Source of the DNA: Acidithiobacillus acidisediminis
GTDB lineage: Bacteria > Pseudomonadota > Gammaproteobacteria > Acidithiobacillales > Acidithiobacillaceae
Length of the DNA: 64,000 nucleotides
Direction of reading: 5' to 3'
Assembly: GCF_023277115.1 (NCBI RefSeq)
Contig: NZ_JALQCS010000001.1
Location: forward strand, 2,660,001-2,724,000
Shown: positions 48,565 through 64,000 of the stretch, one piece after another
How positions within the stretch are numbered: position 1 is the first letter of the stretch
How the letters are laid out: each line of letters begins with the position of its first letter
Program-made: the position numbers and the translations under genes
Notes under the pieces: model-generated
Seen by the model: only the letters and a program-made list of their open reading frames with translations
Database searches by the model: none
What the model was told of the DNA's origin: nothing

Positions 48565-51053
48565 CAGTGCCCCCGCAATCGCAGATAAATCTCAGGCAAA
48601 CGTTGGGGCAGATGATCGATCTGCGGCAGGACCAGGTAATGGCCCGGTCCGAAGACGAGGGGTAGATACTCACCACCGCGCGGATCAAGACTGATGCAGA
48701 AAGCATGCACCCCCTGTTCCCGCGCCTCCCGCACCGCCATGCGGGTGTCCTCCTGCAGATAGCGCGGATCACCACCGTCATCGTAGTCGGCGGGTCGACC
48801 ATCGGAGAGAATCAACAAGAGTCGTCGCTGTCCGGGACTGCGCAGGAGCTGCCGCGTGCTGTGTCGAATGGCGGCTCCCATACGCGTCGCCAGGCGCCCA
48901 CTGAGGCCACCCAGAACGGCTCTGGCTCGCCCATCAAAACGCTCATCGAAGCGTTTGATCGGGTAGACCAGCACCTCTTGATGATATTTGCTGGCAAAGC
49001 CATAGAGGGCAAAAGGATCCCCGACTTCGACCAAGGCCTCGCCGAAGAGCAGCATAGCGGCCCGTAAACGATCGACCACCCGCACGCCGCTGTCGGCGGC
49101 CTCGGCCATGATCGAGGTAGACAGATCGGCGAGAAGCAAGACCGCCGTATCGCGCTGCAACGGCCGACGTTGCCGGTAGATGTTGGCTTTGGGGCTCTGA
49201 CCTGCGCGCCGCTCGACGACAAACTGCACGGCGGCATCGATGTCCGGCTCTTCGCCCTCCTTCTGCCGCCGCAGGGGAGACATGCGCGTCGGCTTCTGCG
49301 CCTGTAGTGCCTTCTTCAGTCGGCGCATGGTGCCATCGTTTTCCGCCGTGATCTCCACCGCGCGCGCCTCGTCGCGCTCGCGCAGCTTGCGCTCATGCAC
49401 CCGCGCCCAGTTGTCCTTGTATTTTTCCTGGCGGTAGTCCCATTCCTTGTAGGGCCAGCCACCCTTGGGACCCTGCACTCCACGGCCACTGCCGTGGACC
49501 TTGGCGGGCATGGGAATCCCCACCCCTACTCGACCGCCGGTGCCCTGAATATCTTCTGGGGGGATTTCCAGATCCGGATCATTGCCCTCTGCCTGCTGCG
49601 GCGCCTCGCGCGGCTTTTCCTTATGACCGGCTGCGCCGAGCTCGCCGCCCGCGTCTATTTCCACGGCATCGTTCTGCAACTTCTTGCGCGGATAGACCGG
49701 CCGGGCAGCATTGGGCGAGTGCCCCGGCAAAAAGGCTGCCGCACGCTCGGCCAGAGTAATGGGGGGAAGATCGGTGTGGGCGTAGCGCTCCAGGGCTAGA
49801 CGAAAGGCGTCGAGAATTCCCGCCACGGCAGTGGACAATGGCGTCAGCTCGCTTGGCAGATGACCAGCGGCTGCGGCGCAGGTGATCTGCAAGGCCTCGC
49901 GCCAATACGCACCCGCCGCCCCCGGGGGCACGCTGCGCGTCTCTGCCGCCCGCAGCAGGCGTGCCAGATACCCGGGCATCTCCCGCTCCATGGCCAGATC
50001 AACCCGCAGATCCTCGAGGATGTCGAAGATGAGCTGAAAACGTAGCAGGTCTTGACCGAATTGTGCAAAGAGGGGACGCCAGGTGATGCGCTGATCGGCA
50101 TCCAACGGGGGATGCTCCATCCCAATTTCGCGGAAGAGCGCCTGAATGGCAGCGTCGTCATAACTGCCAAAGGCGAGGTGGGCACCAGTGTGGTAGAAGG
50201 CCAATACCGCCTCCTCCCGATCCGGCATCACGGCCGGGACAAAGAGGCTGCGCCCATCCGTCTCGAGAAAGCTGCGCCCGCCCTCCACGCTCCAGTCGCC
50301 CTCCTCGAAGGGCAGATGCAAGCCCGTCCAGGCCTGCAGGAGCAAGGCAAAGAGGCGCTTGTGTGGCCCAATACGAAAGCCCGGCAGCACCTCCAGGAGG
50401 AAGGCGCGCGCCTCGTCGCTCTCCAGCTTGTACCACGCCTCACCGCGGATACGGCCAGCCGCAAGAATATCCCGCCCGCGCTGCGCCCAGTCTGCAACCC
50501 CTTCCAGACCACAAATGGCGCGGACCTTGACCGCACCTTCGAGATAGCTCGCCAGACCCAGTCGTCCTTTCGCCAGCTCTCGCGCCGGAGCCAGCAAGGT
50601 ACGCAACTCCTCGGCACCATAAGCGCCGAAGAGTTGGGCGATGGGCATGCGGAAGTACGCCGCGGCACTATCGACATGACGTGCGACCCAGTCTGCCCCT
50701 TCCTCGTACCAGATCTGTTCCCCCGCCAGGCCATACTGCTCGCGCACCTGCGCAGCCTGTTCAAAGTAGCCGACGGCCGCGCGAAACGTCCCGCGTTGGG
50801 TCAGGAAGACCCGCGCCTGCTCCAACCAGGGGTCGAGACCGCCGAACGCCTGTACGAGCCCTTCCGTGGCATGAAAGAAGCCCTTGCCCGCCTCACGATC
50901 ATAGAAGAACAGCTCCCGACCGGTTTCCAGGTAGCGCAGTGCTTGCCCTTCGCCCAGAGGCTCCACTGCTGGCAATGCGGCACGCGCATCGCGTCCAGCA
51001 ACGAAGCTCACCGCTTCGAGATGCTCGAGGATTTCCTCCGTCGCCGCAGACAC
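48564..51053 (-). CDS. cbbO: CbbO, VWA-domain adaptor of RuBisCO activase
   Basis: An 829-residue protein. The N-terminal two thirds are the CbbO/NorD-type helical domain, and the C-terminal VWA domain has the MIDAS DLSTS near residue 640 with TRMG and LSDGRPAD later. CbbO links the CbbQ hexamer to RuBisCO and is needed for removal of inhibitory sugar phosphates. A hydrophilic linker (about 455-570) separates the domains. It starts with GTG behind GAGG (5 nt), 7 nt after cbbQ. RuBisCO itself is not in the window. Confidence 0.9.
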   Translation of the reverse strand: MSAATEEILEHLEAVSFVAGRDARAALPAVEPLGEGQALRYLETGRELFFYDREAGKGFFHATEGLVQAFGGLDPWLEQARVFLTQRGTFRAAVGYFEQAAQVREQYGLAGEQIWYEEGADWVARHVDSAAAYFRMPIAQLFGAYGAEELRTLLAPARELAKGRLGLASYLEGAVKVRAICGLEGVADWAQRGRDILAAGRIRGEAWYKLESDEARAFLLEVLPGFRIGPHKRLFALLLQAWTGLHLPFEEGDWSVEGGRSFLETDGRSLFVPAVMPDREEAVLAFYHTGAHLAFGSYDDAAIQALFREIGMEHPPLDADQRITWRPLFAQFGQDLLRFQLIFDILEDLRVDLAMEREMPGYLARLLRAAETRSVPPGAAGAYWREALQITCAAAAGHLPSELTPLSTAVAGILDAFRLALERYAHTDLPPITLAERAAAFLPGHSPNAARPVYPRKKLQNDAVEIDAGGELGAAGHKEKPREAPQQAEGNDPDLEIPPEDIQGTGGRVGVGIPMPAKVHGSGRGVQGPKGGWPYKEWDYRQEKYKDNWARVHERKLRERDEARAVEITAENDGTMRRLKKALQAQKPTRMSPLRRQKEGEEPDIDAAVQFVVERRAGQSPKANIYRQRRPLQRDTAVLLLADLSTSIMAEAADSGVRVVDRLRAAMLLFGEALVEVGDPFALYGFASKYHQEVLVYPIKRFDERFDGRARAVLGGLSGRLATRMGAAIRHSTRQLLRSPGQRRLLLILSDGRPADYDDGGDPRYLQEDTRMAVREAREQGVHAFCISLDPRGGEYLPLVFGPGHYLVLPQIDHLPQRLPEIYLRLRGH

Positions 51054-51060
51054 GCAGGCC

Positions 51061-51882
51061 TCAGGCAGCGAAGAAGGTCTGGAAAATTTCCGTCAGCGCC
51101 ATTGCCAACTCCGGATCATCGGTCTGCGGACTGACAATGGCCGCCTCGATAGCCTCCAACGGCGCCAGACCTGCCGCTATCAGGGTGCCGGCATAGACCA
51201 GGGCGCGGGTGGAAGTCACCTCTTGCAGGCCCTGATCCTTCAAATTGCGTGCCTTGGCAGCAGCCTGCACGAGTTTGCTGGAACGATCCGCATCCAGCCC
51301 CGACTCGCGCATAACGATCTGCGCCTCGAGCTCTGCCGGAGGATAGGTAAAGTTCATCCCCACAAAGCGTTGCTTGGTCGACGGCTTGAGATCCTTGAGA
51401 ACAGTCTGATAGCCCGGATTGTAGGAGATGACCAGAAGAAAATCGGGATGCGCAGTGATTTCCGTGCCGAGCTTGTCAATGGGCAGATGACGGCGATGGT
51501 CGGTCAGCGGGTGGATGACGACCGTGGTATCGGTACGCGCCTCGACCACCTCGTCCAGATAGCAAATTGCGCCTTCCCGCACCGCGCGGGTCAAGGGACC
51601 GTCCTGCCAGACCGTTTCATCGCCCTCGATCAGGAAACGACCAACCAGATCGGAACTGGTCAGATCCTCGTGGCAGGCCACCGTGATCAGAGGACGTTTG
51701 AGACGCCAGGCCATATGTTCCAGAAACCGCGTCTTACCGCAGCCGGTTGGCCCTTTCAGCATTACCGGAAGACGTCGCCCCCAGGCGGCCATGAAGATCC
51801 CCAGCTCATTCCCCACCGGCTGATAAAATGGCTCTTCACTGATATAGCGCAGGGCATGATCGCCTGGGCGAGTCTGACTCAT
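51061..51882 (-). CDS. cbbQ: CbbQ, AAA+ ATPase of RuBisCO activase
   Basis: A 273-residue MoxR-type AAA+ protein. Walker A GPTGCGKT is at residues 44-51, Walker [12 protein letters not shown] with the sensor-1 region [11 protein letters not shown]. It closely follows the CbbQ/NorQ layout, and pairing with CbbO identifies it as the RuBisCO activase motor. The ATG overlaps the stop of the small upstream gene (ATGA). Confidence 0.92.
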
Positions 51883-52277
51883 GATGGATCCTCTTGCGAC
51901 TGTTCGGTATGGCTGCGGGCGTAAAGATACAAATGGCGCAGGGTGTGCAGCAACATCTTTTCCGGTTGCGGCGGCAGAGCGTCTTCGCGCCCCAGGTCTA
52001 GGCAATTCTGGTAGTACACCAACTCGCGACAATTGTCGCGAATGGTATTCCAATGTGGCTGCCCCTTCACCAGCGTTTTCCACAGCGTGAGCAGATCCGC
52101 ATCGGCAGCAAAGTCCTTGCGCTCTGACACCAGTAAAATCTGCAGCAATTCCCGCGCGATTTCGGTGCCTTGCGCCACACTGGCGGAAAAATTACCTGGA
52201 TCTGCACTTCGCCCGAGGGCCTCGATATGTGCCTGCGCCTCGTCCAAGCGCGCCAGCGCTAGGGTCTTATCGTGCAT
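51879..52277 (-). CDS. Small helical protein coupled to cbbQ
   Basis: A 132-residue helical protein with no recognised family. Residues about 35-120 contain [19 protein letters not shown] and [17 protein letters not shown]. It is translationally coupled to cbbQ, and begins the unit after a fresh RBS (GAGGAGTT). A role as a CbbQO accessory factor is inferred from position alone. Confidence 0.75.
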
Positions 52278-52393
52278 AACAACTCCTCTCGCCTGAACGA
52301 GTAACCTACCCTTTTTCCCCCACTTCGTCTAGGATACGGGTGTTTTACCCACTGATATCCATAATGGATTTTATGCACGGAAAAGGGGCTTTC

Positions 52394-52717
52394 ATGAGCA
52401 CGAAACTCGTCAAGATGGTCAAACTCAACAACCTGCAGTACAACCAGAACCGCGACCCACAGGTCTATCGCCGGGTGGTAGGTCATCCCTTCCGGATTCA
52501 GGCGATGCTCGAAGGCCAAGGCAGCGCCAAGGTTACCCTGAGCTGTGAAGGCAAGACCCTGAAGGAGAGCAATATCGAATTGCCCGGCATGTTCTCCTAC
52601 GAGCTGACCTTCAAGAATGCTGGGGTGCGGGTTGCGACCCTGACGGCGAGCAACGAAGGCCAGAGCGAGAGCCACGAACTCCTGCTCGATACGGAAGCCC
52701 ACGCCCACGTCGGCTGA
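52394..52717 (+). CDS. Small beta-rich hypothetical protein
   Basis: A 107-residue protein with alternating hydrophobic residues in the segments GSAKVTLSCEGKTL, GMFSYELTFKNAG and VATLTASNEGQSE, which suggests an Ig-like or SoxZ-like beta-sandwich. No signal peptide is present. The ATG is behind AAGGGG. It is divergent from the cbbQ unit and converges on the receiver-like gene. No function can be assigned. Confidence 0.7.
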   Translation: MSTKLVKMVKLNNLQYNQNRDPQVYRRVVGHPFRIQAMLEGQGSAKVTLSCEGKTLKESNIELPGMFSYELTFKNAGVRVATLTASNEGQSESHELLLDTEAHAHVG

Positions 52718-52754: not shown

Positions 52755-53126
52755 TTACCAAGAGAACTGGCGCAGAAATTCGGGTAATCGCGCCAGGATT
52801 TCCTCTTTTTCGAAGAAGCGGTCCGCCCGCGCCGAACGCGCAGCGAGGCGCTGTTCCTCGCTGCCACCATAGCAAAAGATCGGAATGTTGAGCTGATGCT
52901 CGCGGCGGATTTCGTCGATAATCGCAGGGTCGATCGCCGGGTCGTCCAGGTCCAACATCAGAAAGCGATGCAAGAGGATCTCCTGCCAGTCGTCAAATTC
53001 CTCAACCGCAAGTGCTGCAGTCAGTGACCATTCGGGCGGCAAAGCGGCACGCGCCGCACTCAGCATCTCCTCGTCCGTACTCATCCAGATCAATCGCTTG
53101 CGTAGGCGGTCTTGGATCGTTGGCAT
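52755..53126 (-). CDS. Receiver-like domain protein
   Basis: A 123-residue protein with the outline of a response-regulator receiver. The N-terminal acidic pair is degenerate (LIWMSTDEEML). The possible phospho-acceptor is in RFLMLDLDD. A Ser/Thr-like strand (IPIFCYGGSEEQ) is followed by a Lys in FFEKEEIL. No output domain is present. The ATG is behind AGGAG. It may be a pseudo-receiver; similarity is by eye. Confidence 0.55.
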   Translation of the reverse strand: MPTIQDRLRKRLIWMSTDEEMLSAARAALPPEWSLTAALAVEEFDDWQEILLHRFLMLDLDDPAIDPAIIDEIRREHQLNIPIFCYGGSEEQRLAARSARADRFFEKEEILARLPEFLRQFSW

Positions 53127-53139
53127 CGGTTTCTCCTGT

Positions 53140-54150
53140 TCACAATTGATCGGTCCACACGGTAAGCTCGTGCAGACGCCGCTGCCAATGCTCCGCAGCG
53201 TCGCCCAGAACTCTGGCAAAAAGCGCCCTGTGTTGCGGTGAATCCGCCGACATTCCCACCAGAGCCCGGCAGATTTCCCCTGGCAAGACGTTACTCTCCA
53301 CTGCGCGGTAGCGACCATCTTCCGTCCATACCCGCAGCCAGCCGTCGGGCCAGTGTCTTTCCGTGAGAAAAGCCCCAGCGCGTAGTTTGATCCCATTCGC
53401 CACGCGCCGGCGCCCGCCTCCCTCCCAGTCTACCGGTTCCAGCTCTGCCTGCAGCATGGCCGCACGTTCCGCGCCACTCAGTGCCCCCTCCATGACCTGC
53501 CAGCTCTGGGTCTGCAACTGCTCCTGCCAAACCTGCTTGATCCGGGTATGGGCAGGCACTGCTATTTGCCGTTCTTCAGCCCAACTGGTCAGGGAGGCGG
53601 ATAAGGCTTGCCGGAGGGTGGCGCGAAAGCCCCTGGATGGTGCCGCCACCCGGTCGGCGAAGCCCACCCAGTCGGTGTGCAACAAATAACTCCCAGCGAG
53701 CACCAAACTGTTGCCGATACTCGCCGCACCGGTGCTCCCGATCCGTCGCCCCCGACAGCGAAATTCTTGCTCCGCGGCAAGTTCAACGGATATACCAAAA
53801 TGCGCATGCACTGCCTGAATTATTGGGGCAATGGCCGCCAGCAACTGTTCCGGACGGCGCCGCTGGGCAGTCGGCGTGACCAACAGAAAATAGTTCAGAT
53901 GCGCGGGCTCCACCCAGACCAGTCCACCGCCAATGGGCCGTTGGATAATCGGCAGAGACGAGGCACAAGCATCACGATCCAGCTCCAGCCCTGCCACCTG
54001 CGAGGCACCCAGACTGAGATGGGGTTCGGCACTTGCCAGCACCAGAAGACTGGGATCCTCCGCCCGCCGCAGCGTGGCCAATGCTTGATAGGCTTGGTGC
54101 AGGGCGCTGGCGGAAAGATGGCCGAGGTCAAGCCAGCGCAGCCGCTCCAT
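53140..54150 (-). CDS. Lipoate-protein ligase-like protein lacking the catalytic lysine
   Basis: A 336-residue LplA/BPL-fold protein. The start MERLRWLDLGHLS matches the LplA opening WRLIDTGPLS. The substrate loop RRxTGGG is altered to QRPIGGG. The catalytic-lysine motif GRKxSGTG reads GRRIGSTG, so Lys is Arg. A C-terminal LplB-like region is present (about 240-330). It is probably not an ordinary ligase; an octanoyl/lipoyl transferase role through another residue or a binding role is possible. It sits between two unknown small genes near cbbQO and 5 kb from the lipoate-assembly cluster. Confidence 0.8.
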   Translation of the reverse strand: MERLRWLDLGHLSASALHQAYQALATLRRAEDPSLLVLASAEPHLSLGASQVAGLELDRDACASSLPIIQRPIGGGLVWVEPAHLNYFLLVTPTAQRRRPEQLLAAIAPIIQAVHAHFGISVELAAEQEFRCRGRRIGSTGAASIGNSLVLAGSYLLHTDWVGFADRVAAPSRGFRATLRQALSASLTSWAEERQIAVPAHTRIKQVWQEQLQTQSWQVMEGALSGAERAAMLQAELEPVDWEGGGRRRVANGIKLRAGAFLTERHWPDGWLRVWTEDGRYRAVESNVLPGEICRALVGMSADSPQHRALFARVLGDAAEHWQRRLHELTVWTDQL

Positions 54151-54176
54151 CGTTCCCAGGACTGGCACAGAAACCG

Positions 54177-54566
54177 TTACTCGGCGCGTTCCTTGGGCCG
54201 GTAGAAGGAGGAAAAATAGAAATCGCGCTGGTTCAGCTCTTCATGCCAGTGAGCACGATCCTGCACGCCTTGCTGTAGGATGGCAGCGATGGCCTGGGCT
54301 TGTTCCCCATCGAGGATCAGAATGGCATCGAGGAGGTCTTCGTCCAAATCAATGAAGTGCGCCGCCAAGCCTTGCGGCTCTTGTACATGCACCAGGTAGG
54401 ACTGGCAGGACAGGTCCTCGGGGTCCAGGGGCGTCATTACCAAGCGACCCAAGTAGGCCATGCGCGCGAGTTGATTGAAGCGGGGAATTTCGAGCTTCTT
54501 GCCCTTCTTGTACTTGTTGAGTTCATTTTTGATACTGCTGACATCGGCAATGGGAATGGTCTTCAT
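54177..54566 (-). CDS. Hypothetical protein
   Basis: A 129-residue soluble protein of unknown family. It begins MKTIPIADVSSIKNELNKYKKGKKLEI and has an acidic helix DEDLLDAILILDGEQAQAIAAIL. The ATG is behind GAGG (5 nt). It appears to start the unit with the ligase-like and receiver-like genes. Confidence 0.7.
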   Translation of the reverse strand: MKTIPIADVSSIKNELNKYKKGKKLEIPRFNQLARMAYLGRLVMTPLDPEDLSCQSYLVHVQEPQGLAAHFIDLDEDLLDAILILDGEQAQAIAAILQQGVQDRAHWHEELNQRDFYFSSFYRPKERAE

Positions 54567-54646
54567 GGACACCTCTCGCTATCGGTCGCCGCCTAGTGTC
54601 TGGCCTAGAGGACTCAGATGCAAGCCCGAGCGCTAGGACATCCAAT

Positions 54647-54697: not shown

Positions 54698-56041
54698 TTA
54701 GAACTCGTAGCCGACCTGTAGCCCGTAAGAGTTTTCGCCGAGGGTCGACGAAGCGGCCTGCAGTGGATCGCCAGGAGCAAAAGGTGCCGAACCGGGCTCT
54801 CCGGTCATTGTGTTGCTGAAGGCATGCATATAGGCCTCAGTCAACTTCCAACCCATACCCAACTTCTGGGTCGCACCAAAGGTGATTGCATTTTGCACAA
54901 TGGCCGGGAAAATGGTGTTTGAGGCAATTGCGGCGCTATTGTTTGGCACCGGATTGGAGCCCCACGTATAACCCGCCCGAACCTGCAACCAATTCGTAAG
55001 GTCGTACTGCGTGCCGATGTTGGCAACCCACTGATTGCGCCAATTCAGGGGAAGTGCTTCAACATTCGTGCCTTGCCAAGGTCCATAAATATTGAAGGTG
55101 TTCAGAGTATTGTGCCAGTTAATCCATTGTCCCTCGACACTGACCAGCCACTGACGTGTGGGACGAATAGCCAGACCCAAGGCGATCTGCTGTGGATAAT
55201 TTAGATGGCCACTGTACTGACCTGGGTTACCAGGCGTACCGTTGGGGGCAACTTGTGCTCCCCCTTGAAACGTCATAGGCGTAAAGATCATGGGTGATTT
55301 ATACGCCGCTCCCAAGGTTACCATATCGTTGACCTTGTAAAGTGCCCCTAACGTTAATCCGACACCATAAGCCCATGAAGGGGTGGACAAGTTGATTCCG
55401 GACGTTACAGGAACCACCGTATTGAAGGAACCAACGCCAGGCTGAACCACTGTGGCTGGGGCAAACTGAGTAAGAGTCTGCTGAAAAGAGCCTTGCTCGG
55501 CAGCGATGTTCAACGAGGCACCAATTGCTAGGTGCGAGTTAACCTTCATTGCAATGGACGGAGCCATCTGAATGAAAGTGATACTGCTATAGGCTTGGGC
55601 ATATCCACCATAAGGAAGGCCCTGAGGATTGGGAGCAACATTTTGGAGATAGTTAACTCCTAAACCAGATGTTCCATACACACCGCCACCGAACACAATA
55701 CCGTCACCAAACGCCGGCGCTACCCAGCCAATTGCTGGGACACCATATACGTTACTGTGACTACCAATCTCCCCAAAACCCATGTTCGTCTTGCGTGTTG
55801 GGTTGAAAACTTCCGCAGAAAAAGCCGCTTGCGGATGCATCAACGCCAGTCCAGCTGGGTTGCTGATGGCGGCGGACAAGGGATCATCGGGCGCAGCCAC
55901 AACAGCCCCACCCATGCCGATAGCGTACTGACCAATACCAATCAACTGGTAGCCATCGGTGGCAAAGGCGCTACCCGAGAAACCTGCTGCGGCAAGTGCT
56001 GCAGCAACTGCAAGACCTACTATTCCGGATTTCTTTTTCAC
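54698..56041 (-). CDS. OmpP1/FadL-family outer-membrane channel
   Basis: A 447-residue protein with a signal peptide (cleavage after AFA, residue about 25) and a FadL N-terminal hatch (GYQLIGIGQYAIGMGGAVVAAPDDPLSAAISNPAGLA), then amphipathic beta strands to a C-terminal aromatic residue (YEF). FadL channels take up hydrophobic compounds. Beside the sulfur-oxidation locus it is a candidate for entry of elemental sulfur or polysulfide, by inference. GTG start at 56041 with GAGGG 7 nt upstream; the upstream in-frame codons are 5' UTR. Confidence 0.88.
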   Translation of the reverse strand: MKKKSGIVGLAVAAALAAAGFSGSAFATDGYQLIGIGQYAIGMGGAVVAAPDDPLSAAISNPAGLALMHPQAAFSAEVFNPTRKTNMGFGEIGSHSNVYGVPAIGWVAPAFGDGIVFGGGVYGTSGLGVNYLQNVAPNPQGLPYGGYAQAYSSITFIQMAPSIAMKVNSHLAIGASLNIAAEQGSFQQTLTQFAPATVVQPGVGSFNTVVPVTSGINLSTPSWAYGVGLTLGALYKVNDMVTLGAAYKSPMIFTPMTFQGGAQVAPNGTPGNPGQYSGHLNYPQQIALGLAIRPTRQWLVSVEGQWINWHNTLNTFNIYGPWQGTNVEALPLNWRNQWVANIGTQYDLTNWLQVRAGYTWGSNPVPNNSAAIASNTIFPAIVQNAITFGATQKLGMGWKLTEAYMHAFSNTMTGEPGSAPFAPGDPLQAASSTLGENSYGLQVGYEF

Positions 56042-56160
56042 TTCTCCGCCCTCTGTTGTCAAAACGTGCTCCGATTGTGGCGGATAGGTCAAAGTGTTGC
56101 AAGAACTGTCACAATCAAAGTTTTTTGCGATTTGATCAAAGGAGAAAATACTGCGATTTC

Positions 56161-56246: not shown

Positions 56247-57383
56247 TCAGCCGGGGAACTGCAGTTCCTGCAGACGCATCTGGCGCCGCACGATCTCCAC
56301 GTCCTGCTTGTTGAGGGCGAAAGGGAAAGAACGAATGTCCGAGGGCGAAGAATCGCCATAGGGACGATTGCAGGCGCTCACTTCCTCATCATCCTTGCCC
56401 GGGCAACCAGAGGTCTGGAAGGGTTTGCCCGAGTCGATGATGTCTTCCAGTTCGGCCTGGGGGAAACCAAAGTCTGCCACCCGACCATACTCGTCAAAGC
56501 TCATGTCCTCAAAGCGCCCACCGGCATAATCGATGAGGAAGCGGCCCAACTGCACGCGCCGCCACTGGTCCTGCGGCACCGGATCCCAATCTTCCATCAT
56601 CGACCCCTTTTCTGGGAAGAAGGCGAACATATGATTGTGACCACCCATATCCTTCATGCGCTGGCAGACCTGCAGAATTTCCTGCTCCGTCTCGCCCATA
56701 CCGCAGATCAGGTGCGCGCCAAACTTCTCCGGTCCATAAATTTCCGCGGCCCATTCGATCGCCTGCCAGTACTTGTCCCAGGAGTGCGGGCTCTGTACTG
56801 TCTTGCCGCGGGTGCGCTCAAAGATCTCCGGAGTCACGGCATCGAGAGCCACAGTGAAGATGTCGGCGCCCAACTCCTTCAGCGTAATCAGATCCTGCTT
56901 CTCCATGGTCGTCGGATTGGAGAGGATCGAGACTGGGATGTGCGGTGCCGCTTCCATCCAGCGCTTGAGCACGACCTGCGTGTCATAATCCGAGTCCGGA
57001 TGGGTGATCATGCTGATGCACATGCGCTCAAACTGGCCCTTATCGCTATTCGCCGCGATGCGCTCCAGCATCTCATCTACCCGCACCGTCGGCCAGTCTA
57101 CGCGAATGAAATTACGGTCGGCATAATCCCGGCTTTCTTCCCGGTGCCGCGCCAAACCACAGTAGGTGCAGTTGGCCCGACAACCCTCCGGGTAGGTCAT
57201 GAGCAGATTCAGACAATGCGTGCAACTGGTCCGGTGCATGACGCCAGGGACGAGTCCCAGGGTAATCGCAGCTGCCGTGCTCAACTGCACATAGTCGGGA
57301 GAACGCATGGCCGGCGTCTTGACGAAATAGTCCGGCCGGTAAAAGTTCAAGGGCTGATTGGTTTCCGGGGCTACCGCACTCAT
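56247..57383 (-). CDS. lipS2: LipS2, radical SAM lipoyl synthase subunit
   Basis: A 378-residue radical SAM protein of the biotin-synthase-like group. The SAM cluster motif is CRANCTYC (Cys 68, 72, 75); further cysteines include CTHC just before it, and SGCPGKDDEE near the C-terminus. In the published sHdr-linked lipoate pathway, LipS2 acts with LipS1 to insert the two sulfur atoms into octanoyl-LbpA. The ATG is behind GAGG (7 nt), and the gene ends the unit. Confidence 0.9.
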   Translation of the reverse strand: MSAVAPETNQPLNFYRPDYFVKTPAMRSPDYVQLSTAAAITLGLVPGVMHRTSCTHCLNLLMTYPEGCRANCTYCGLARHREESRDYADRNFIRVDWPTVRVDEMLERIAANSDKGQFERMCISMITHPDSDYDTQVVLKRWMEAAPHIPVSILSNPTTMEKQDLITLKELGADIFTVALDAVTPEIFERTRGKTVQSPHSWDKYWQAIEWAAEIYGPEKFGAHLICGMGETEQEILQVCQRMKDMGGHNHMFAFFPEKGSMMEDWDPVPQDQWRRVQLGRFLIDYAGGRFEDMSFDEYGRVADFGFPQAELEDIIDSGKPFQTSGCPGKDDEEVSACNRPYGDSSPSDIRSFPFALNKQDVEIVRRQMRLQELQFPG

Positions 57384-57409
57384 GTGAAATCCTCCTCGAC
57401 AATCCGCCC

Positions 57410-58468
57410 TCAGGCGGCAAAATATTCCTCAAAGGCAATCCATCCAGACCGCATGACGCGATCCTCCTGCGCCGCCGGCTTCCGCCACACGGCCTCCAAC
57501 GCGCTACGGCGCTGCACCGCTCGCTGCAAAGCAGGACCAAACTGGTCCGTCATATCTTCCGCATACTCTTCCAGGGCATCACCATCACCAGCAAGCCAGG
57601 CATCAGCTGCCTCCCCCGCCGCGGCGCCGCTGATTACTGCCGCCGGAATTCCTGCCCCGGTGATCGGATGGGTCAGGCCAGCCGCATCCCCCAGCAGCAG
57701 GGCGCGGTCATGGACCATCGGACGAATGCCCCCGACGGGGATGGCACCGCCGGTACGTCCGAGAATCTCGGCGCCGACAATGCCGCGGCCCTGCATCTGC
57801 TCATGGAGAGTAGCAAGAGGCGCCTTCAGATTGCTCTCGAAGCGTCGATCTGCCCCCAGACCCAGGTTGGCCACCGGCCCGCGGGGAAACAGCCAAGCAT
57901 ATCCGCCGGGGAAGGCATCGGACAGAAAAATGTCGGTGTCCTGATAAGGCTGCAAGAGGGGCACGGTGTATTGCCGCGTGAAGACGACCGCCTGATCTGG
58001 CAGGCCAAGGGCCGCAGCAACGGCGCTATGTGGCCCATCCGCGCCCAGCAGAAAGCGGGGTCGCACGGCAATCATTTCGCCCTGATGCTGGATTTGCGCG
58101 ATCTCGCCATCCCAGGAGCGAAACTGGGTCTGCCGCCAGAGCTCGGCACCGGCATCCTCCGCCATCTGGGCGAGTCCTTGATCAAAGCGCGCACGGTCGA
58201 TCATGAGCCCAGGAAATTCGGAATGTTCGCTACTCCCCGATGGCAAGAAGGTCAGCATGCCGCTCACCTCCTGCACCCGCGACAGGGTTTCATGAACCGT
58301 GCGCATCAGAGGCATCGGCACAAATTCTGCGCACTGTACCGGCAAGCCGATTTCTGTTCTTTTATCAACAGCAAGGGTACGCAACCCCGCCGCCGCCGTG
58401 GCCCGCGCCGCCGCTGCTCCACCAGGGCCAACACCGACTACCAGAACGTCACAATCGATCATGCGCAC
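57410..58468 (-). CDS. lipT: LipT, geranylgeranyl-reductase-like flavoprotein
   Basis: A 352-residue FAD oxidoreductase. The dinucleotide fold is VVGVGPGGAAAARA near residue 10, with the FAD-binding LLGDAAGLTHPITGAGI near residue 275. It always lies between the ligase and LipS2 in sHdr lipoate clusters, where it is thought to supply electrons or adjust redox state during lipoate assembly. GTG at 58468 is preferred (GGAGG, 7 nt); it overlaps the ligase by 10 nt. Confidence 0.88.
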   Translation of the reverse strand: MRMIDCDVLVVGVGPGGAAAARATAAAGLRTLAVDKRTEIGLPVQCAEFVPMPLMRTVHETLSRVQEVSGMLTFLPSGSSEHSEFPGLMIDRARFDQGLAQMAEDAGAELWRQTQFRSWDGEIAQIQHQGEMIAVRPRFLLGADGPHSAVAAALGLPDQAVVFTRQYTVPLLQPYQDTDIFLSDAFPGGYAWLFPRGPVANLGLGADRRFESNLKAPLATLHEQMQGRGIVGAEILGRTGGAIPVGGIRPMVHDRALLLGDAAGLTHPITGAGIPAAVISGAAAGEAADAWLAGDGDALEEYAEDMTDQFGPALQRAVQRRSALEAVWRKPAAQEDRVMRSGWIAFEEYFAA

Positions 58469-59547
58469 GGTAACGCCTCCAGCACGACGGTGACAAAATC
58501 CTGCGGCACCAAGCCTAAGGCATCAACCGAGGTATCCTGGTACCAACGCTCGACGATTTGCGGCAGATCATCAATGTGGCTATTCCGTAAGGCCGCCTCC
58601 AGATCAATGACTGCACGCCGCGGTTGTATAAAAAAATCCCCGCTGAAAGCGATCTGGCGGATACGTCTTCCCCGCGCGTCCCAGAGCAGTTCGCTGCGTA
58701 GGGTGCCACCAGTACCGCGGTGAACCGCTTGCAAGAAAGGTTGCTCGCTCTGCGGGCGATCCTGCAACTGCAACCATTCCGGATCCCGCACTGTGGCCAG
58801 CGCCTCAGCCAGGTGACTTTCCACCTGCACGGGGAGGGGCGCCTCCTGTAGATCCCAGGAAAAATAGTCGCGGAAACCCTGCAACAAGGCCGACTTCACC
58901 TCTTCTTTCGCCGGCAAGCGTCCGAGCAAGGCGCGTAAGCTGGTCACCCGTTCCGCGACGGACTGTATGGCGTGGGCGTTCAGCTTCTCTGCCGGCACGC
59001 GCAGAATCCGTAGCATGCGCGGAATGTCCAAGTCGATCAGCACCGTCCCCTGAAACAAGACGACCTTGCCATCGATGATCCCGCCCGTACCGGAAACCTT
59101 GCGCCCACCTACCTCAATGTCGTTGCGCGGGCGGAATTGTGCATCCACGCCCAGCTGGCGCAGCCCCAAGGCCGCCGCTTCACAAATCTCTTGCGCGAGA
59201 AAACTCATGTCACCAGCGGGCAAGTCTTCGCGCCGGCAGACCAATTCCCAACCGAGCTGGGTCGGATCAAAAATGATCGCCCCGCCGCCCGTCAGGCGCC
59301 GCTGCACTGCCACGCCTTCCGCAGCACAAAAGGCGAGATCCAGTTCCTGTTGCGGCGACTGGTGATGCCCCAGCAAGGCGCAGTCGCGGAAATGCAGGAA
59401 ACGAAATATCGGCGAGCAACCGCCTTCTGCCACGGCAGCGACCAGTGCATGGTCGAGGGCCATGTTCTCGTCCGCGTCGCGCAGGCCGGTATCGATAACC
59501 GACCAACGCGCCTCAGCGCCCCGCTGCCCCTTTTCCCGCCCTTGCAT
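58459..59547 (-). CDS. sLpl(AB), lipoate/octanoate-protein ligase for LbpA
   Basis: A 362-residue fused ligase. The LplA part (residues about 15-245) has RRLTGGG at 83-89 and the catalytic Lys 150 in GGRKVSGTGG. The LplB-like domain (about 250-350) is at the C-terminus. It adenylates octanoate or lipoate and attaches it to LbpA, giving the substrate of LipS1/LipS2. Contrast the homologue at 53140-54150, where this lysine is missing. Confidence 0.9.
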   Translation of the reverse strand: MQGREKGQRGAEARWSVIDTGLRDADENMALDHALVAAVAEGGCSPIFRFLHFRDCALLGHHQSPQQELDLAFCAAEGVAVQRRLTGGGAIIFDPTQLGWELVCRREDLPAGDMSFLAQEICEAAALGLRQLGVDAQFRPRNDIEVGGRKVSGTGGIIDGKVVLFQGTVLIDLDIPRMLRILRVPAEKLNAHAIQSVAERVTSLRALLGRLPAKEEVKSALLQGFRDYFSWDLQEAPLPVQVESHLAEALATVRDPEWLQLQDRPQSEQPFLQAVHRGTGGTLRSELLWDARGRRIRQIAFSGDFFIQPRRAVIDLEAALRNSHIDDLPQIVERWYQDTSVDALGLVPQDFVTVVLEALPCA

Positions 59548-59560
59548 AACGGCGTGCCGC

Positions 59561-60688
59561 TCAGGCGGTCACGACAATGGGAATATCGCGCAACGCGGGA
59601 CGACGCTTCGGTGCCGCGGGAATATGATCGAGAGGAATGGCCCCTGATTCCTCACCCAAGGCCAGGACTTCTTCCCCCACGATCATGGAGCAACAGGAAG
59701 GGGTAACGAAGACATCACGGTCCAGGTGCTTGGCCAGAGCAAGCATCCCGTCGGAGGGAAAGGCGATCCCGTTCAGGCCCGCCATCACGGCGTAGCTATC
59801 CGTCTCGGAGCGATGTACTCCGCCGGGACGGGCGCAACCCAGCAATACCGGGGTATCGGGCAAAGTGGCGCGAGCGTCCATAAAGAACTTACCAACCTCG
59901 GCGCTGGGGGGTGTCGCGAAAGGCCGACTCTGGCTGGCATACTGGGACATGATCACCACCAGGACCAAAGCGCTGGGCAGATGACGCTGCACAATTTCCA
60001 GCGAATTCCACTCCCCCAGCATCTCACCGTAGTGCAAGCCAATGACAATGTGCGGTACCACCTTCATCTTGGTGGCGACCAGCGCCTCCAGCGCTGCCTC
60101 GAAATCATCGACACTGCGGCGCAAATGATAGACCTGGGAGATGGTATCCTGCGCACCAATGACGTCCATCATGGCCACGTCCACCCCCGCATCTTCCATA
60201 CCGCGGGCAAATTCTGGCGTCGCGATGCCGGTGTGCATGGCAATCTGCAGGTCTGGATAGCGCGCCTTGATCTTACTGACGGTGGGGAAATACGGTTCAT
60301 AATGAACGACGTTTTGATGGTCAGATCCGCCAGATAACAATAACCCGCGTCCGCCATCCAGTACGATCTGATCGACCAAGCGATCAAGCTCTTCCGGAGA
60401 GCGCACGGGGATCATCGGTTCGAGAATTTTTGCTTTGCAGTGATCACACTGCAGTTTGCAGTCGCCGCCGGTAATGGAAATGGCCGGGAAGGCATTCTTA
60501 CCACAGCTGGTGGTAGACAACTCTGACGTCTCGTGGTGACGGAACGATGGCGTATAGAAATTGATTCGCCCAACCTGGCTTCCCGACAGTCCCTGCCAAC
60601 GTTCACGCATCGACGTTACCAGTCTGGAGTCGAGGTGCAGGTCTTCAAGGGCCTCAACCTGAGATACAGCGTCCAACCATGGATTCAT
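59561..60688 (-). CDS. lipS1: LipS1, radical SAM lipoyl synthase subunit
   Basis: A 375-residue radical SAM protein with CKLQCDHC (Cys 77, 81, 84) as the cluster motif. Later cysteines include GCARPGG and a CC pair in TPSCCSMI near residue 330, which could hold the auxiliary sulfur-donating cluster. It works with LipS2. It follows LbpA after a terminator-like hairpin (60711-60745), 23 nt before the start. Confidence 0.9.
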   Translation of the reverse strand: MNPWLDAVSQVEALEDLHLDSRLVTSMRERWQGLSGSQVGRINFYTPSFRHHETSELSTTSCGKNAFPAISITGGDCKLQCDHCKAKILEPMIPVRSPEELDRLVDQIVLDGGRGLLLSGGSDHQNVVHYEPYFPTVSKIKARYPDLQIAMHTGIATPEFARGMEDAGVDVAMMDVIGAQDTISQVYHLRRSVDDFEAALEALVATKMKVVPHIVIGLHYGEMLGEWNSLEIVQRHLPSALVLVVIMSQYASQSRPFATPPSAEVGKFFMDARATLPDTPVLLGCARPGGVHRSETDSYAVMAGLNGIAFPSDGMLALAKHLDRDVFVTPSCCSMIVGEEVLALGEESGAIPLDHIPAAPKRRPALRDIPIVVTA

Positions 60689-60710
60689 GAGCTCGTCCGT
60701 CCTGCGCTAG

Positions 60711-60745
60711 AAAAATGGGAACAGCGGCTGCCGCGGCAGCCGCTG
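60711..60745 (-). terminator. Internal terminator/attenuator between lbpA and lipS1
   Basis: A perfect 24-nt palindrome, CAGCGGCTGCCG and its complement (60722-60745), then six nucleotides and TTTTT on the minus strand. It should end most lbpA transcripts and let only a fraction reach the lipoate-assembly genes. Confidence 0.82.
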
Positions 60746-60763
60746 AGGATGACCGGACCGAAA

Positions 60764-61201
60764 TCAGCAGCCGCCAAAGCCGTCGGCGTTCATCTTCTCT
60801 TCAAATGCCGCCAAGGCATCGGCCCCGGTTTTCAGATCACCGGCATCGCCATCAAAATCCGCAGGCTTCAGCTTGGCGACCCAACCGCTACCATAAGGAT
60901 CCTTGTTGATCAGGCCAGGGTCCTTGGCCACTTCTTCATTGCTCTCGGTTACCGTACCACTCACGGGGCTCTTCAGAGGGCCCACCCACTTTCCAGATTC
61001 TACGGTGGCAGCAGACTTGTCTTTTTTGATGTCCTTTCCAGCAGCCTTCGGGGTATAGGAGACGATCTGACCCGCCAACGCACAGGCATAAGCCGTCATG
61101 CCAATGGTGACGCTGCCATCATCTTCCTTGCGCAGCCATACGTTGTTTTCAACGTTATACATCAGATCTTCTGGAATTTCACAACCACGAACGGTACCCA
61201 T
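60764..61201 (-). CDS. lbpA: LbpA, lipoate-binding carrier protein of sHdr
   Basis: A 145-residue GcvH-like lipoyl-domain protein. The modified lysine is Lys 71 in TVESGKWVGPLKSPVSG, and the C-terminal part has NKDPYGSGWVAKLKP as in GcvH. Unlike GcvH of glycine cleavage, LbpA serves the sHdr complex in the oxidation of sulfane sulfur. It has its own strong AAGGAGGG RBS 48 nt after the DsrE-like gene and a terminator after it. Confidence 0.92.
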   Translation of the reverse strand: MGTVRGCEIPEDLMYNVENNVWLRKEDDGSVTIGMTAYACALAGQIVSYTPKAAGKDIKKDKSAATVESGKWVGPLKSPVSGTVTESNEEVAKDPGLINKDPYGSGWVAKLKPADFDGDAGDLKTGADALAAFEEKMNADGFGGC

Positions 61202-61249
61202 ATTGCCCTCCTTGGGGTGTACGGAAATAAACAGTCAGGGACGGATCCC

Positions 61250-61645
61250 TCAGAAAAATAACAAGCGATCTACCGATAGTATGAGATCGGCAAGATCCCC
61301 AGCGGAAGCGATATGGTCGACCTCATCGATCAGACCCGTCTCTTCCATGGCATAACCCGGCAACGCAGGACGACACACATATAGTTCTACGCCCGCATTC
61401 TTGGCATCACGAATGAAATCGATGATGCGTTTGCCGCCTTCCATGGCTGCCATGTTCTCGGCAACACCCTTTTCCATGAGTTTCACCGCTTCCATGGTGC
61501 AAAAAATCTTAACCTCTGCATCCATGGATGACAACAAGGAACCAAGATAAAAGGGCGTTGCACAACGATGCGCGGTGCTTGGTCCACTGGTCATGACAAT
61601 GACGACCGTTTTTTCGTCTCCATCCTCCAGGTAGTGGCTACTCAT
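61250..61645 (-). CDS. DsrE-family sulfur-relay-like protein
   Basis: A 131-residue DsrE/F-like protein. Cysteines are at residues 28, 49 and 91; Cys 91 in YVCRPALPGY lies at the usual active-site place of sulfurtransferring DsrE proteins. The N-terminal half has VVIVMTSGPSTAHRC. It should carry persulfide sulfur in the cytoplasm. Its ATG overlaps the stop of the lipoyl-carrier-like gene, and LbpA follows. Confidence 0.85.
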   Translation of the reverse strand: MSSHYLEDGDEKTVVIVMTSGPSTAHRCATPFYLGSLLSSMDAEVKIFCTMEAVKLMEKGVAENMAAMEGGKRIIDFIRDAKNAGVELYVCRPALPGYAMEETGLIDEVDHIASAGDLADLILSVDRLLFF

Positions 61646-62088
61646 CGCATACCTCGCTCGCAGTGAATGTCATCGCGCAGACAGCGCGCCTTGTACATCT
61701 CGAATGCCGCCTCTCCCGTAACCATATCCTTCAGGGCGACTTCCAGGCTGGCCACTGGACGCACGCGGGCGATCCACGCTTCGTAGGGTTCGATATTCAG
61801 CAGATTGGGGTCTTCGAGAACGTCCTCGTTTGCCAGGTCAATAATGCAATCAAAGACATTGGGAACAGGCCCTGCCCATTTGCCACTCTCAATGGTGGCG
61901 ACGGGTTTACCAATCGGCCGACGGGTGCCGGGGCGGCGCACACGAACGTGCAAAATCTTGCCGGCGATGGATTGAGAAATGTCAGTCATGCCAACGGTGA
62001 GGGTACCATCGTCCTCCCGTCGCGCCCAGACCTGACTCTCCTTGTCGTAGTAGAGTTCGGCGCGAAATTCACAACCGTTACACTCCAT
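61642..62088 (-). CDS. Second lipoyl-carrier (GcvH/LbpA-like) protein
   Basis: A 148-residue protein homologous to LbpA. It keeps the lipoylation lysine (Lys 70 in ATIESGKWAGPV), but the PVSG turn after it is replaced by NVFDCIIDLAN, and the N-terminus MECNGCEFRAEL adds cysteines at 3 and 6. The start ATG is behind GAGGAAAAGGCC; the longer frame to 62133 is rejected because it enters the terminator. It may be a specialised carrier or a partner that binds but does not react. Confidence 0.85.
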   Translation of the reverse strand: MECNGCEFRAELYYDKESQVWARREDDGTLTVGMTDISQSIAGKILHVRVRRPGTRRPIGKPVATIESGKWAGPVPNVFDCIIDLANEDVLEDPNLLNIEPYEAWIARVRPVASLEVALKDMVTGEAAFEMYKARCLRDDIHCERGMR

Positions 62089-62116
62089 GGCCTTTTCCTC
62101 GTTGTTGTCAGCGACG

Positions 62117-62142
62117 AAAAAAAACGCCCCCAAGTGGGGGCG
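62117..62142 (-). terminator. Intrinsic terminator after hdrB2
   Basis: On the minus strand CGCCCCC, loop, GGGGGCG and eight T residues, 17 nt after the hdrB2 stop. It separates sHdr subunit genes from the carrier genes. Confidence 0.95.
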
Positions 62143-62158
62143 CCTTTACTCTGCGCTC

Positions 62159-63070
62159 TCAGGCGATACCTTTGGCGGCAAGGAGGTCCATCGAGTCACT
62201 GACATTGTCGGGAATACCGACTTTGCGTGGTGACAAGCCCATGGCCAGGCCCAACAACTGCGTGAAGTAGATCACCTTGACGTTGGATTTGATGCCAAAC
62301 TCTACCTCAGCGCGGACCTGATGCATCTCCAGGCCAGAGTGACAGGTTGGACACTCTGTGGCGATGACTTCTGCGCCGGCATCTTCTGCCGCCTGCAGGA
62401 TGTTCAGGACCAGTTGGGTGGAGGTATCAGAATCGGAAAGAGTGTGTGCACCACCGCAGCATGCCGTCTTCAGAGGGAAATCCACCGCAACCGCACCCGC
62501 AGCGTTCAGCAGGTCGTCCATAAAATGCGGGGCATAGGAAGATTCCGAACCTGGGCCTTGATCCTTCTCCGGAAAGATCTGCCGCGGCCGGGTATACATG
62601 CACCCATAATAGTTAGCAATCTTCAGACCGTTGAGGCTCTTCTTGACGCGGCTTTTGATCCCCTCCGGACCAACCTCCTCCATGAACCACTCCAAAGCAT
62701 GAAGGGTGCGTACATCATTCTCGAAAACCGGATCACCCGCCTTCTCGGCCAGATCCTGCACGGTTTTCATCGTCTCTTCCGAGGTGGCGCATTCGTATTC
62801 CGTCTGCTTCAGATTGCGGTAGCAGCCATTGCAGGGCGCCATGACCGTATCACAGCCCTGCAGTTTGCTGGCGATCGCCATGTTCCGCGCCGACATATAG
62901 GTCTGCAGCATGGGATGAATATTCTTGACTTCCATCGCGCCACAGCAGTTGTAGTCCTCGAGATTCTCCATCTCCAGACCCAACTCTTTAACCAGCACGC
63001 GTGTCGACTTGTCGTACGGGCCGCCTGATCCTTCCAAGGCACAACCGGGATAATATGCAACCTTAGCCAT
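62159..63070 (-). CDS. hdrB2: sHdrB2, heterodisulfide-reductase-B-like subunit
   Basis: A 303-residue protein with two CCG domains: CCG at residues 42-44 (NCCGAM) and 204-206 (ACCGGA), with further cysteines in CNGC (80-83) and ECPTC (240-243). These ligate the unusual non-cubane 4Fe-4S clusters of HdrB. sHdrB2 is part of the sHdr complex that oxidises protein-bound sulfane sulfur. The ATG at 63070 overlaps hdrC2 by 8 nt. Confidence 0.93.
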   Translation of the reverse strand: MAKVAYYPGCALEGSGGPYDKSTRVLVKELGLEMENLEDYNCCGAMEVKNIHPMLQTYMSARNMAIASKLQGCDTVMAPCNGCYRNLKQTEYECATSEETMKTVQDLAEKAGDPVFENDVRTLHALEWFMEEVGPEGIKSRVKKSLNGLKIANYYGCMYTRPRQIFPEKDQGPGSESSYAPHFMDDLLNAAGAVAVDFPLKTACCGGAHTLSDSDTSTQLVLNILQAAEDAGAEVIATECPTCHSGLEMHQVRAEVEFGIKSNVKVIYFTQLLGLAMGLSPRKVGIPDNVSDSMDLLAAKGIA

Positions 63071-63782
63071 GATGCGCTGCCTCCTTCTGCGTCTTGACGT
63101 ACTCTGCCAGCACCTCACCGGTGCGCCCCCAGGACTTGGTCTTGGGACGGAACACAACGTTGAGCCCCATCTTGGCCAACTGCCCAAGAGGCATGTGCTT
63201 GCTCAGATTCTTGCCGAAATTGATGATCCAGGTCTGCACCAGAGGCTGACCGGAACGCTTGAAGAAGCCCATCATGACTTCCGTATCTTCAATCCGACCG
63301 AACTCCAGACACTGATGCGTAAACTCCTCATCAAAGTGCGTCGATAGGGTCTTCGGGGTGTAACCATTTTCTTCCAGCCAGTGTGCAGTGGCCTTCATCA
63401 CCCCTTCCGGACGCACATCCTTGGGGCAGATGTTGGTGCACTTATTACAGGAAACGCACTGCCAAATGATGTCCTTGTCCTTCATCAACTCGGCCTTCAA
63501 GCCCAGCCGAATCAGATAGATCCAATAGCGTGGATTGAAATCCACATTCTGCGCATACATCGTGCAGGAATTGGTGCAAGAACCACACTGCCAGCAGCGA
63601 TGCACATTTTCCCCGCCACCGTAGCTCTGGATGATCTTTTCGAAATCCGGCTCGTAGTCTACCAACGTACGAGGGGAGATCATGGTATTCCAAGATCCGG
63701 ACACATCCACGCCATCTACGACCAAATGATCGTGCTCGAGAATGCGATCGGGATCGATCAGTGTCTTCTCATGAATAGCCAT
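63063..63782 (-). CDS. hdrC2: sHdrC2, heterodisulfide-reductase-C-like subunit
   Basis: A 239-residue iron-sulfur protein with two classical 4Fe-4S motifs: Cys 63, 66, 69, 73 (CWQCGSCTNSC) and Cys 109, 112, 115, 119 (CVSCNKCTNIC). It passes electrons between sHdrB2 and the rest of the complex. The ATG at 63782 has AGGAG 9 nt upstream and is preferred over the TTG two codons before. Confidence 0.93.
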   Translation of the reverse strand: MAIHEKTLIDPDRILEHDHLVVDGVDVSGSWNTMISPRTLVDYEPDFEKIIQSYGGGENVHRCWQCGSCTNSCTMYAQNVDFNPRYWIYLIRLGLKAELMKDKDIIWQCVSCNKCTNICPKDVRPEGVMKATAHWLEENGYTPKTLSTHFDEEFTHQCLEFGRIEDTEVMMGFFKRSGQPLVQTWIINFGKNLSKHMPLGQLAKMGLNVVFRPKTKSWGRTGEVLAEYVKTQKEAAHHG

Positions 63783-63807
63783 AACCAAGAACTCCTAAAT
63801 TAGAAAC

Positions 63808-63999
63808 CTAATGAACGTCGTTACCCTTGATCCGCGAGCCGCCCATCCGCCGCTGCGTTTCAACACCCAGCAGCTTATGGATTTGCTCAATGAAATCCGA
63901 TTGCCCGCCAAAGTCCGAGCGCAGAAACCCTTCTGCCATGGCCCGCAAGTATTGGGAGTATTGATACGCCAGGAGAACATCGATGAGATAGGGGAGATC
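63808..63999 (-). CDS. sHdr-cluster hypothetical protein (C-terminal part)
   Basis: An open frame enters from the right window edge and ends 26 nt before hdrC2. The last 63 residues include LPYLIDVLLAYQYSQYLRAM and LGVETQRRMGG. In known sHdr operons (hdrC1-B1-A-hyp-C2-B2) a conserved hypothetical gene lies exactly here; the assignment is from position. Confidence 0.8.
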   Translation of the reverse strand, partial: DLPYLIDVLLAYQYSQYLRAMAEGFLRSDFGGQSDFIEQIHKLLGVETQRRMGGSRIKGNDVH

Positions 64000-64000
64000 G

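Follow-up and report, generated by a model that had tools for sequence, protein, structure and literature searches.

Does a lipoate-assembly gene set that lies behind sulfur-oxidation genes replace the classical LipB-LipA route in the cell that carries it, or does it serve carrier proteins of its own? The question is raised by a stretch of 64,000 nucleotides (the window) from Acidithiobacillus acidisediminis (assembly GCF_023277115.1, a genome of 2.81 Mb in 4 contigs; contig NZ_JALQCS010000001.1, positions 2,660,001 to 2,724,000), whose genus-level relatives include Acidithiobacillus sp. YTS05 and Candidatus Igneacidithiobacillus metagenome-assembled genomes (MAGs). On the minus strand of positions 56247-64000 the open reading frames (ORFs) read, in transcription order, hyp, hdrC2, hdrB2, lbpA, dsrE, lbpA, lipS1, sLpl(AB), lipT and lipS2, uninterrupted and all in one direction. 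Judged from sequence and by analogy, this interval is very probably the 3' half of a type I sHdr sulfur-oxidation cluster joined to a line dedicated to the lipoylation of LbpA.

Organization of the sHdr and lipoate-assembly genes

Conservation of the gene order is far beyond chance. All Acidithiobacillia loci read across its full length share the same order, and the lip genes keep 58-99% protein identity across Acidithiobacillaceae. Against the relative G007, the ratio of nonsynonymous to synonymous substitution rates (dN/dS) is 0.005-0.065 for LipS1, LipS2, sLpl, LipT and both LbpA, indicating strong purifying selection; synteny and selection together reject chance or a frame artefact as the source of the pattern. 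The type I arrangement hdrC1B1A-hyp-hdrC2B2 with lbpA is present in full, as the flank beyond the window (L003) holds hyp, hdrA, hdrB1, hdrC1, dsrE, tusA (82 aa), a rhodanese gene (105 aa), moaA, soeC, soeB and soeA. Loss of rhd-tusA from this genome is thereby rejected.

A preliminary description of this DNA, made from its letters alone, had placed all of the named genes where they are found, save that hyp begins at 63808 and runs beyond the window end. The start codons of HdrB2 and of the upstream LbpA have been corrected (Table 1). Both of its carrier proteins are LbpA, with a dsrE gene, added here, between them; gene order and likeness to GcvH make the upstream copy LbpA1-type and the downstream copy LbpA2-type. 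Where that description ended the cluster at lipS2, the conserved block continues to 47383, beginning with fadL (lipY). The link it drew between sulfur oxidation and a non-classical lipoate pathway matches the arrangement published in the relevant passages of PMC6067878 and PMC10332631.

The lipoate-assembly proteins

The profile search proposed in the preliminary description assigns LipS1, LipS2 and sLpl to their families, and LipT to the geranylgeranyl-reductase FAD family (187 bits, cut-off 159). LipS1 scores 196 bits to NF053742 (NCBIfam) over 270 residues and gives no match to the BioB profile at E 1e-3, while LipS2 scores 201 bits to NF053743 and only 28 bits, far below, to BioB. The ligase matches PF21948 (E=5e-47), with an LplB-domain match (NF053749) at residues 291-359. 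Pfam and NCBIfam also recover two GCV_H proteins, DsrE, an HdrB-like CCG protein and an HdrC-like 4Fe-4S protein.

The residues singled out earlier (CxxxCxxC in both LipS proteins, K150 of the ligase and K71 of LbpA) are all present and conserved in homologues. Both LipS proteins have the Cx3Cx2C motif (C77/C81/C84 in LipS1, C68/C72/C75 in LipS2), and further cysteines are invariant in each: C285, C332 and C333 in 27 homologues of LipS1, and C122, C327 and C338 in 30 homologues of LipS2. K150 of sLpl is found in 100% of 32 homologues. LbpA differs from GcvH by N- and C-terminal cysteines that GcvH lacks (PMC6067878), and the protein of 60764-61201 has the lipoyl lysine along with both, K71, C7 and C145 being invariant across 49 homologues. 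In Thermococcus kodakarensis, LipS1 and LipS2 need the radical SAM cysteines and three further cysteines per protein (PMC9585515). C230/C276/C277 of the T. kodakarensis LipS1 are the presumed counterparts of C285/C332/C333 here, CC pair included; the auxiliary cysteines of LipS1 and LipS2 were paired by order and conservation rather than by direct alignment.

Two predicted routes to protein-bound lipoate

LipB (216 aa) followed by LipA (423 bits) is encoded at C1:2750k of the same genome. The check for lipA/lipB suggested in the preliminary description has therefore found both, side by side, and their absence is rejected. The claim that LipS1/LipS2 act instead of LipA would thus apply to the LbpA carriers and not to the organism as a whole: as LipB-LipA is present, LipS1/LipS2 would form an extra route that replaces LipA only for LbpA carriers. 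Co-occurrence of LipS1/S2 with LipA is common in bacteria (Tanabe et al., PMC10332631).

Onto the gene content, order, key residues, conservation and lipB-lipA pair observed here, published work allows activities and a division of labour to be projected. Rhd, TusA and DsrE would pass sulfane sulfur to sHdr-LbpA, which would produce sulfite for oxidation by SoeABC. Octanoate perhaps enters the cell through LipY. sLpl(AB) would activate free octanoate (or lipoate) with ATP and attach it to the acceptor lysine of both LbpA proteins, after which LipS2 would insert sulfur at C8 and then LipS1 at C6, probably with electrons from LipT. LipB-LipA presumably serves GcvH and the E2 proteins of the 2-oxoacid dehydrogenases.

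Several points weigh against a dedicated LbpA line of this kind. Both radical SAM proteins score under the curated NCBIfam cut-offs (230 bits for LipS1, 270 bits for LipS2), and the last two auxiliary cysteines of LipS2 are spaced Cx10C here vs Cx2C in T. kodakarensis. The low scores and the weak BioB match of LipS2 would fit two BioB-like proteins, or members of some other family, with no role in lipoate assembly. That alternative, of which a BioB placement was the refuting outcome set in the preliminary description, is hardly credible, as LipS1 and LipS2 are the best matches by a wide margin, the comparison being by profile and not by tree, and the auxiliary cysteines are conserved; a BioB identity is rejected by the profile scores and the cysteine pattern. 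The LipS1 cut-off is reached by none of 370 genomes sampled at the class level or 377 at the phylum level, nor by the Thermotoga and Sulfolobus control matches, and therefore seems set for a narrower group. The lipB-lipA pair elsewhere in the genome, with its high-scoring LipA, makes it conceivable that LbpA is matured by LipB-LipA and that the LipS1/S2 set acts on another substrate. This too is very improbable, given the fixed synteny of the assembly genes with lbpA and the published requirement of LbpA for sLpl(AB) (PMC6067878, PMC10332631): deletion of slpl(AB) in H. denitrificans abolished LbpA modification and sulfite formation (PMC10332631; PMC6067878). A final point against a line devoted to the sHdr system is the presence of two more LbpA-type carriers encoded away from it, such that the line may serve more than sulfur oxidation. 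From the sequences, the LbpA-type carriers open to the lipoate-assembly pathway may number four instead of two.

LbpA-type carriers outside the sHdr cluster

Five GcvH-like proteins are encoded in the genome, namely GcvH in a gcv operon, the two sHdr LbpA proteins and two further carriers, here called LbpA3. Both LbpA3 have the ESGKW signature and both terminal cysteines, and their loci (L014:1004-1905 and L015:1438-3339; G000:C1 about 1791k and 1612k) each include hemerythrin, flavin-reductase and globin genes with a thioredoxin-like gene nearby. The LbpA3 clade (support 92/93) neighbours the upstream LbpA type in the tree (join 99/92), where the GcvH outgroup branch is long. Cassettes in Acidithiobacillia comprise a Crp-type regulator, globin, FAD/NAD reductase, thioredoxin-like protein and hemerythrin, and vary in completeness; in the other families read, LbpA3 keeps the thioredoxin-like gene and often hemerythrin and the Crp regulator. 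Copy number is two here and in G007 and reaches four in the relative G023.

One near-complete, one-contig genome (G121) encodes both sHdr-type LbpA (L257, G121:C1:526685-528005) and gave no LipS1 match. It has an unrelated ligase paralogue at C1:341967, and its LbpA may be lipoylated by another route.

A trio of genes with a second ligase-like protein

Downstream of fadL (lipY) lies a trio of genes for p131, for a second PF21948 protein (paraLpl) and for p123. It is followed by a small protein on the opposite strand, p132, a CbbQ-type AAA ATPase, a VWA protein and a histone-deacetylase-family (HDAC) protein. The block from fadL to the HDAC gene is conserved throughout Acidithiobacillia; in other Gammaproteobacteria it stands behind lipS2 or separately, and in betaproteobacterial MAGs the trio follows the lip genes and the AAA/VWA/HDAC part is missing.

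In the tree, paraLpl branches outside the sLpl(AB) clade (support 100/100 for the sLpl branch), with weak support at its deepest node (83/26). Among PDB entries, LplA-type ligases give the best alignments to its profile, the nearest being 1vqz at 65 bits. The catalytic lysine is kept in other lineages and is arginine in all members of the clade of the window's genus, so the protein of 53140-54168 lacks the lysine that marks a lipoate:protein ligase and is not classed as one here. With dN/dS of 0.13-0.28, paraLpl is still under purifying selection, but in every lineage tested its rate lies several-fold above that of its neighbours. Loss of the lysine as the cause is rejected, since the rate is equally high in lysine-bearing lineages. 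A comparison of A. ferrooxidans reports 'LplA' under positive selection (PMC10327505), which may be the second ligase-like gene.

p123 is predicted with high confidence to adopt a receiver fold (Foldseek to 3lte, E 1.6e-5; template-modelling score 0.66-0.73). The residues of a working phospho-acceptor site (Asp, conserved Thr/Ser and Lys) are incomplete: position 59 is Asp or Asn, an invariant Cys85-x-Gly-Gly is present, and Arg replaces Lys. The fold of p131 is predicted at a local-distance confidence (pLDDT) of 87, and Foldseek found no structural match for it in the PDB (best E 0.65; VIA-align Z at most 4.6), a result uninformative on fold novelty.

What the trio may do

LipS1 was found in 29 of the 370 class-level genomes, and each of the 18 genomes with the trio is among them. 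These calls come from neighbourhood maps built by simple ORF calling; paraLpl-profile matches such as those in G104, G121, G201 and G312 are ligase paralogues of other kinds with no p131, and are left out of the count. The 377 phylum-level genomes yielded no full-length trio ligase outside the class, though seven other genomes have LipS1. Of the 370 genomes 19 encode LbpA3, and it co-occurs with the trio in 17, out of 18 trio genomes in all. Within the 29 LipS1 genomes, 17 have both, one the trio only, one LbpA3 only and 10 neither (Fisher p 6e-6, a value that overstates independence because the genomes share ancestry). Two families (f93 and f142) each hold both states, and there the trio and LbpA3 change together.

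The trio may be a second lipoylation-related unit: in the genomes sampled it never occurs without LipS1, and it is inherited along with a third LbpA carrier class in thioredoxin-like/hemerythrin/Crp cassettes (with globin and flavin reductase in Acidithiobacillia). This reading is quite possible but short of probable. A dedicated pairing of the trio with LbpA3 is possible, if unproven. In its strict form, which we find rather doubtful, the trio would be a dedicated acylation or transfer unit for LbpA3, giving parallel lines with sLpl for the sHdr LbpA and the trio for LbpA3. The co-occurrence and joint changes just described favour this, as does the likeness of the paraLpl family to LplA-type ligases with the lysine kept outside the window's genus. 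In G215, which has no trio, LbpA3 is separated by 0.8 kb and a Crp-type regulator gene from a different PF21948 ligase gene (L261:12106-14392), again in its favour. Yet in the window's genus the lysine is arginine although LbpA3 is retained, the trio and LbpA3 are adjacent in no genome read, G201 has LbpA3 with neither trio nor LipS1, and kinship among the genomes inflates the statistic. The arginine speaks against a plain paraLpl ligase in this genus and could instead point to a pseudoenzyme that regulates or chaperones sLpl or LbpA without catalysis of its own, under the control of p123; we rate this reading equally doubtful. A single Lys-to-Arg change common to the whole clade with the gene retained, a dN/dS above that of the neighbours yet far from 1, whether the lineage bears Lys or Arg, and a partner with a receiver fold and degenerate acceptor site would all fit such a protein. 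Against it stands the conservation of the lysine and the GGG motif outside the window's genus, which suggests that catalysis by paraLpl is ancestral.

Features of the locus and its flank

The features are collected in Table 1. Window positions 47383-52277, with the CbbQ-type AAA ATPase, VWA, HDAC-family and two small proteins, are conserved together with the trio. In the flank, L003:6052-11664 holds moaA and SoeCBA-like genes adjoining the sHdr operon, the Soe names being based on sequence inspection and position rather than a profile search.

Table 1. Genes of the sHdr end module, the lipoate-assembly set and the adjoining conserved block (window positions)
Feature	Position	Strand	Basis
hyp of sHdr operon, 5' part beyond window	63808..64000	-	complete in flank as L003:809-1612; order hdrA-hyp-hdrC2 conserved
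sHdrC2, 4Fe-4S dicluster protein	63063..63788	-	profile matches; 99% identical in relative G007
sHdrB2, CCG-domain protein	62159..63070, ATG at 63070	-	profile matches, synteny
LbpA upstream copy, LbpA1-type by gene order as in TK90_0638	61642..62088, ATG at 62088	-	motif ESGKW
DsrE-family protein between the two lbpA genes	61250..61645	-	Pfam
LbpA downstream copy, LbpA2-type by order	60764..61201	-	acceptor Lys71, conserved Cys7 and Cys145
LipS1 radical SAM protein	59561..60688	-	C77/C81/C84 and C285/C332/C333
sLpl(AB), predicted octanoate/lipoate:protein ligase	58459..59547	-	K150, C-terminal LplB-like domain
LipT, FAD-dependent oxidoreductase, probable electron donor for LipS1/S2	57410..58468	-	family match; role proposed in PMC10332631
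LipS2 radical SAM protein	56247..57383	-	C68/C72/C75 and C122/C327/C338
FadL-type outer-membrane protein (lipY), putative fatty-acid transporter	54698..56092	-	Pfam PF03349; PMC10332631; conserved position
p131, 131 aa, conserved, no Pfam match; trio gene 1	54177..54572	-	
paraLpl, second ligase-like protein (PF21948)	53140..54168	-	Arg142 at catalytic Lys position
p123, degenerate CheY-like receiver protein; trio gene 3	52755..53126	-	structure prediction, alignment
Small conserved protein, family not assigned, opposite strand	52340..52717	+	synteny
p132, small conserved protein, family not assigned	51879..52277	-	synteny
CbbQ/NorQ-type AAA ATPase	51061..51885, start placed at internal ATG	-	Pfam PF07728 and PF08406; conserved order
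Large VWA-domain protein, CbbO/NorD-like partner of AAA protein	48564..51053	-	VWA match under Pfam cut-off; synteny
Histone-deacetylase-family hydrolase, last gene of conserved block	47383..48564	-	Pfam, synteny

Implications and comparison with known systems

For the core genes, the sequences would add one more acidophile to those with the published alternative lipoate pathway. The unexpected part is the ligase-like gene set adjoining this core and co-inherited with a separately encoded third carrier class. In the main texts of the open-access literature searched we found no mention of the trio or of a second ligase in sHdr clusters, and nothing relevant on LbpA with hemerythrin or globin; the novelty of the trio and LbpA3 is to be taken within that scope. 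If the trio is such a unit and LbpA3 such a class, LbpA-type lipoyl chemistry would reach beyond sHdr into an oxygen- or nitric-oxide-linked redox module. Were LbpA3 lipoylated and working with thioredoxin-like and hemerythrin proteins, lipoate would gain one more role in physiology, while another ligase-like family, if real, would help explain how the cell distinguishes its lipoyl carriers.

Among characterised relatives, A. caldus SM-1 has soeABC, rhd, tusA, dsrE and hdr genes similarly arranged (PMC6335251), that is, the same sHdr operon with the same upstream sulfur-transfer and sulfite-oxidation genes, but with mogA in the position of moaA here. T. kodakarensis shares the two radical SAM subunits and ligase-first attachment, with LipS1/LipS2 and Lpl-N/Lpl-C (PMC9585515; PMC10332631), whereas its archaeal ligase is in two pieces, there is no sHdr link and the auxiliary cysteine spacing of LipS2 differs. 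paraLpl resembles LplA-type lipoate ligases in its catalytic-domain sequence, GGG motif and, in most members, the lysine; it differs in its C-terminal part and, in the window's genus, by the change of Lys to Arg. The closest counterpart is Thioalkalivibrio sp. K90mix (TK90_0638 onward; Cao 2018, Tanabe 2023), where lbpA1-dsrE-lbpA2-lipS1-slpl(AB)-lipT-lipS2 follow a type I sHdr operon in the same order, with two LbpA carriers and a ligase having both LplA and LplB parts, and where the four assembly genes modify LbpA in E. coli (PMC10332631; PMC6067878). Unlike the K90mix locus as described in the passages of those papers on it, the one here has fadL (lipY) directly next, then the trio and the AAA/VWA/HDAC block. 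As its order and content match the characterised K90mix set, the core gene set is of an already known kind.

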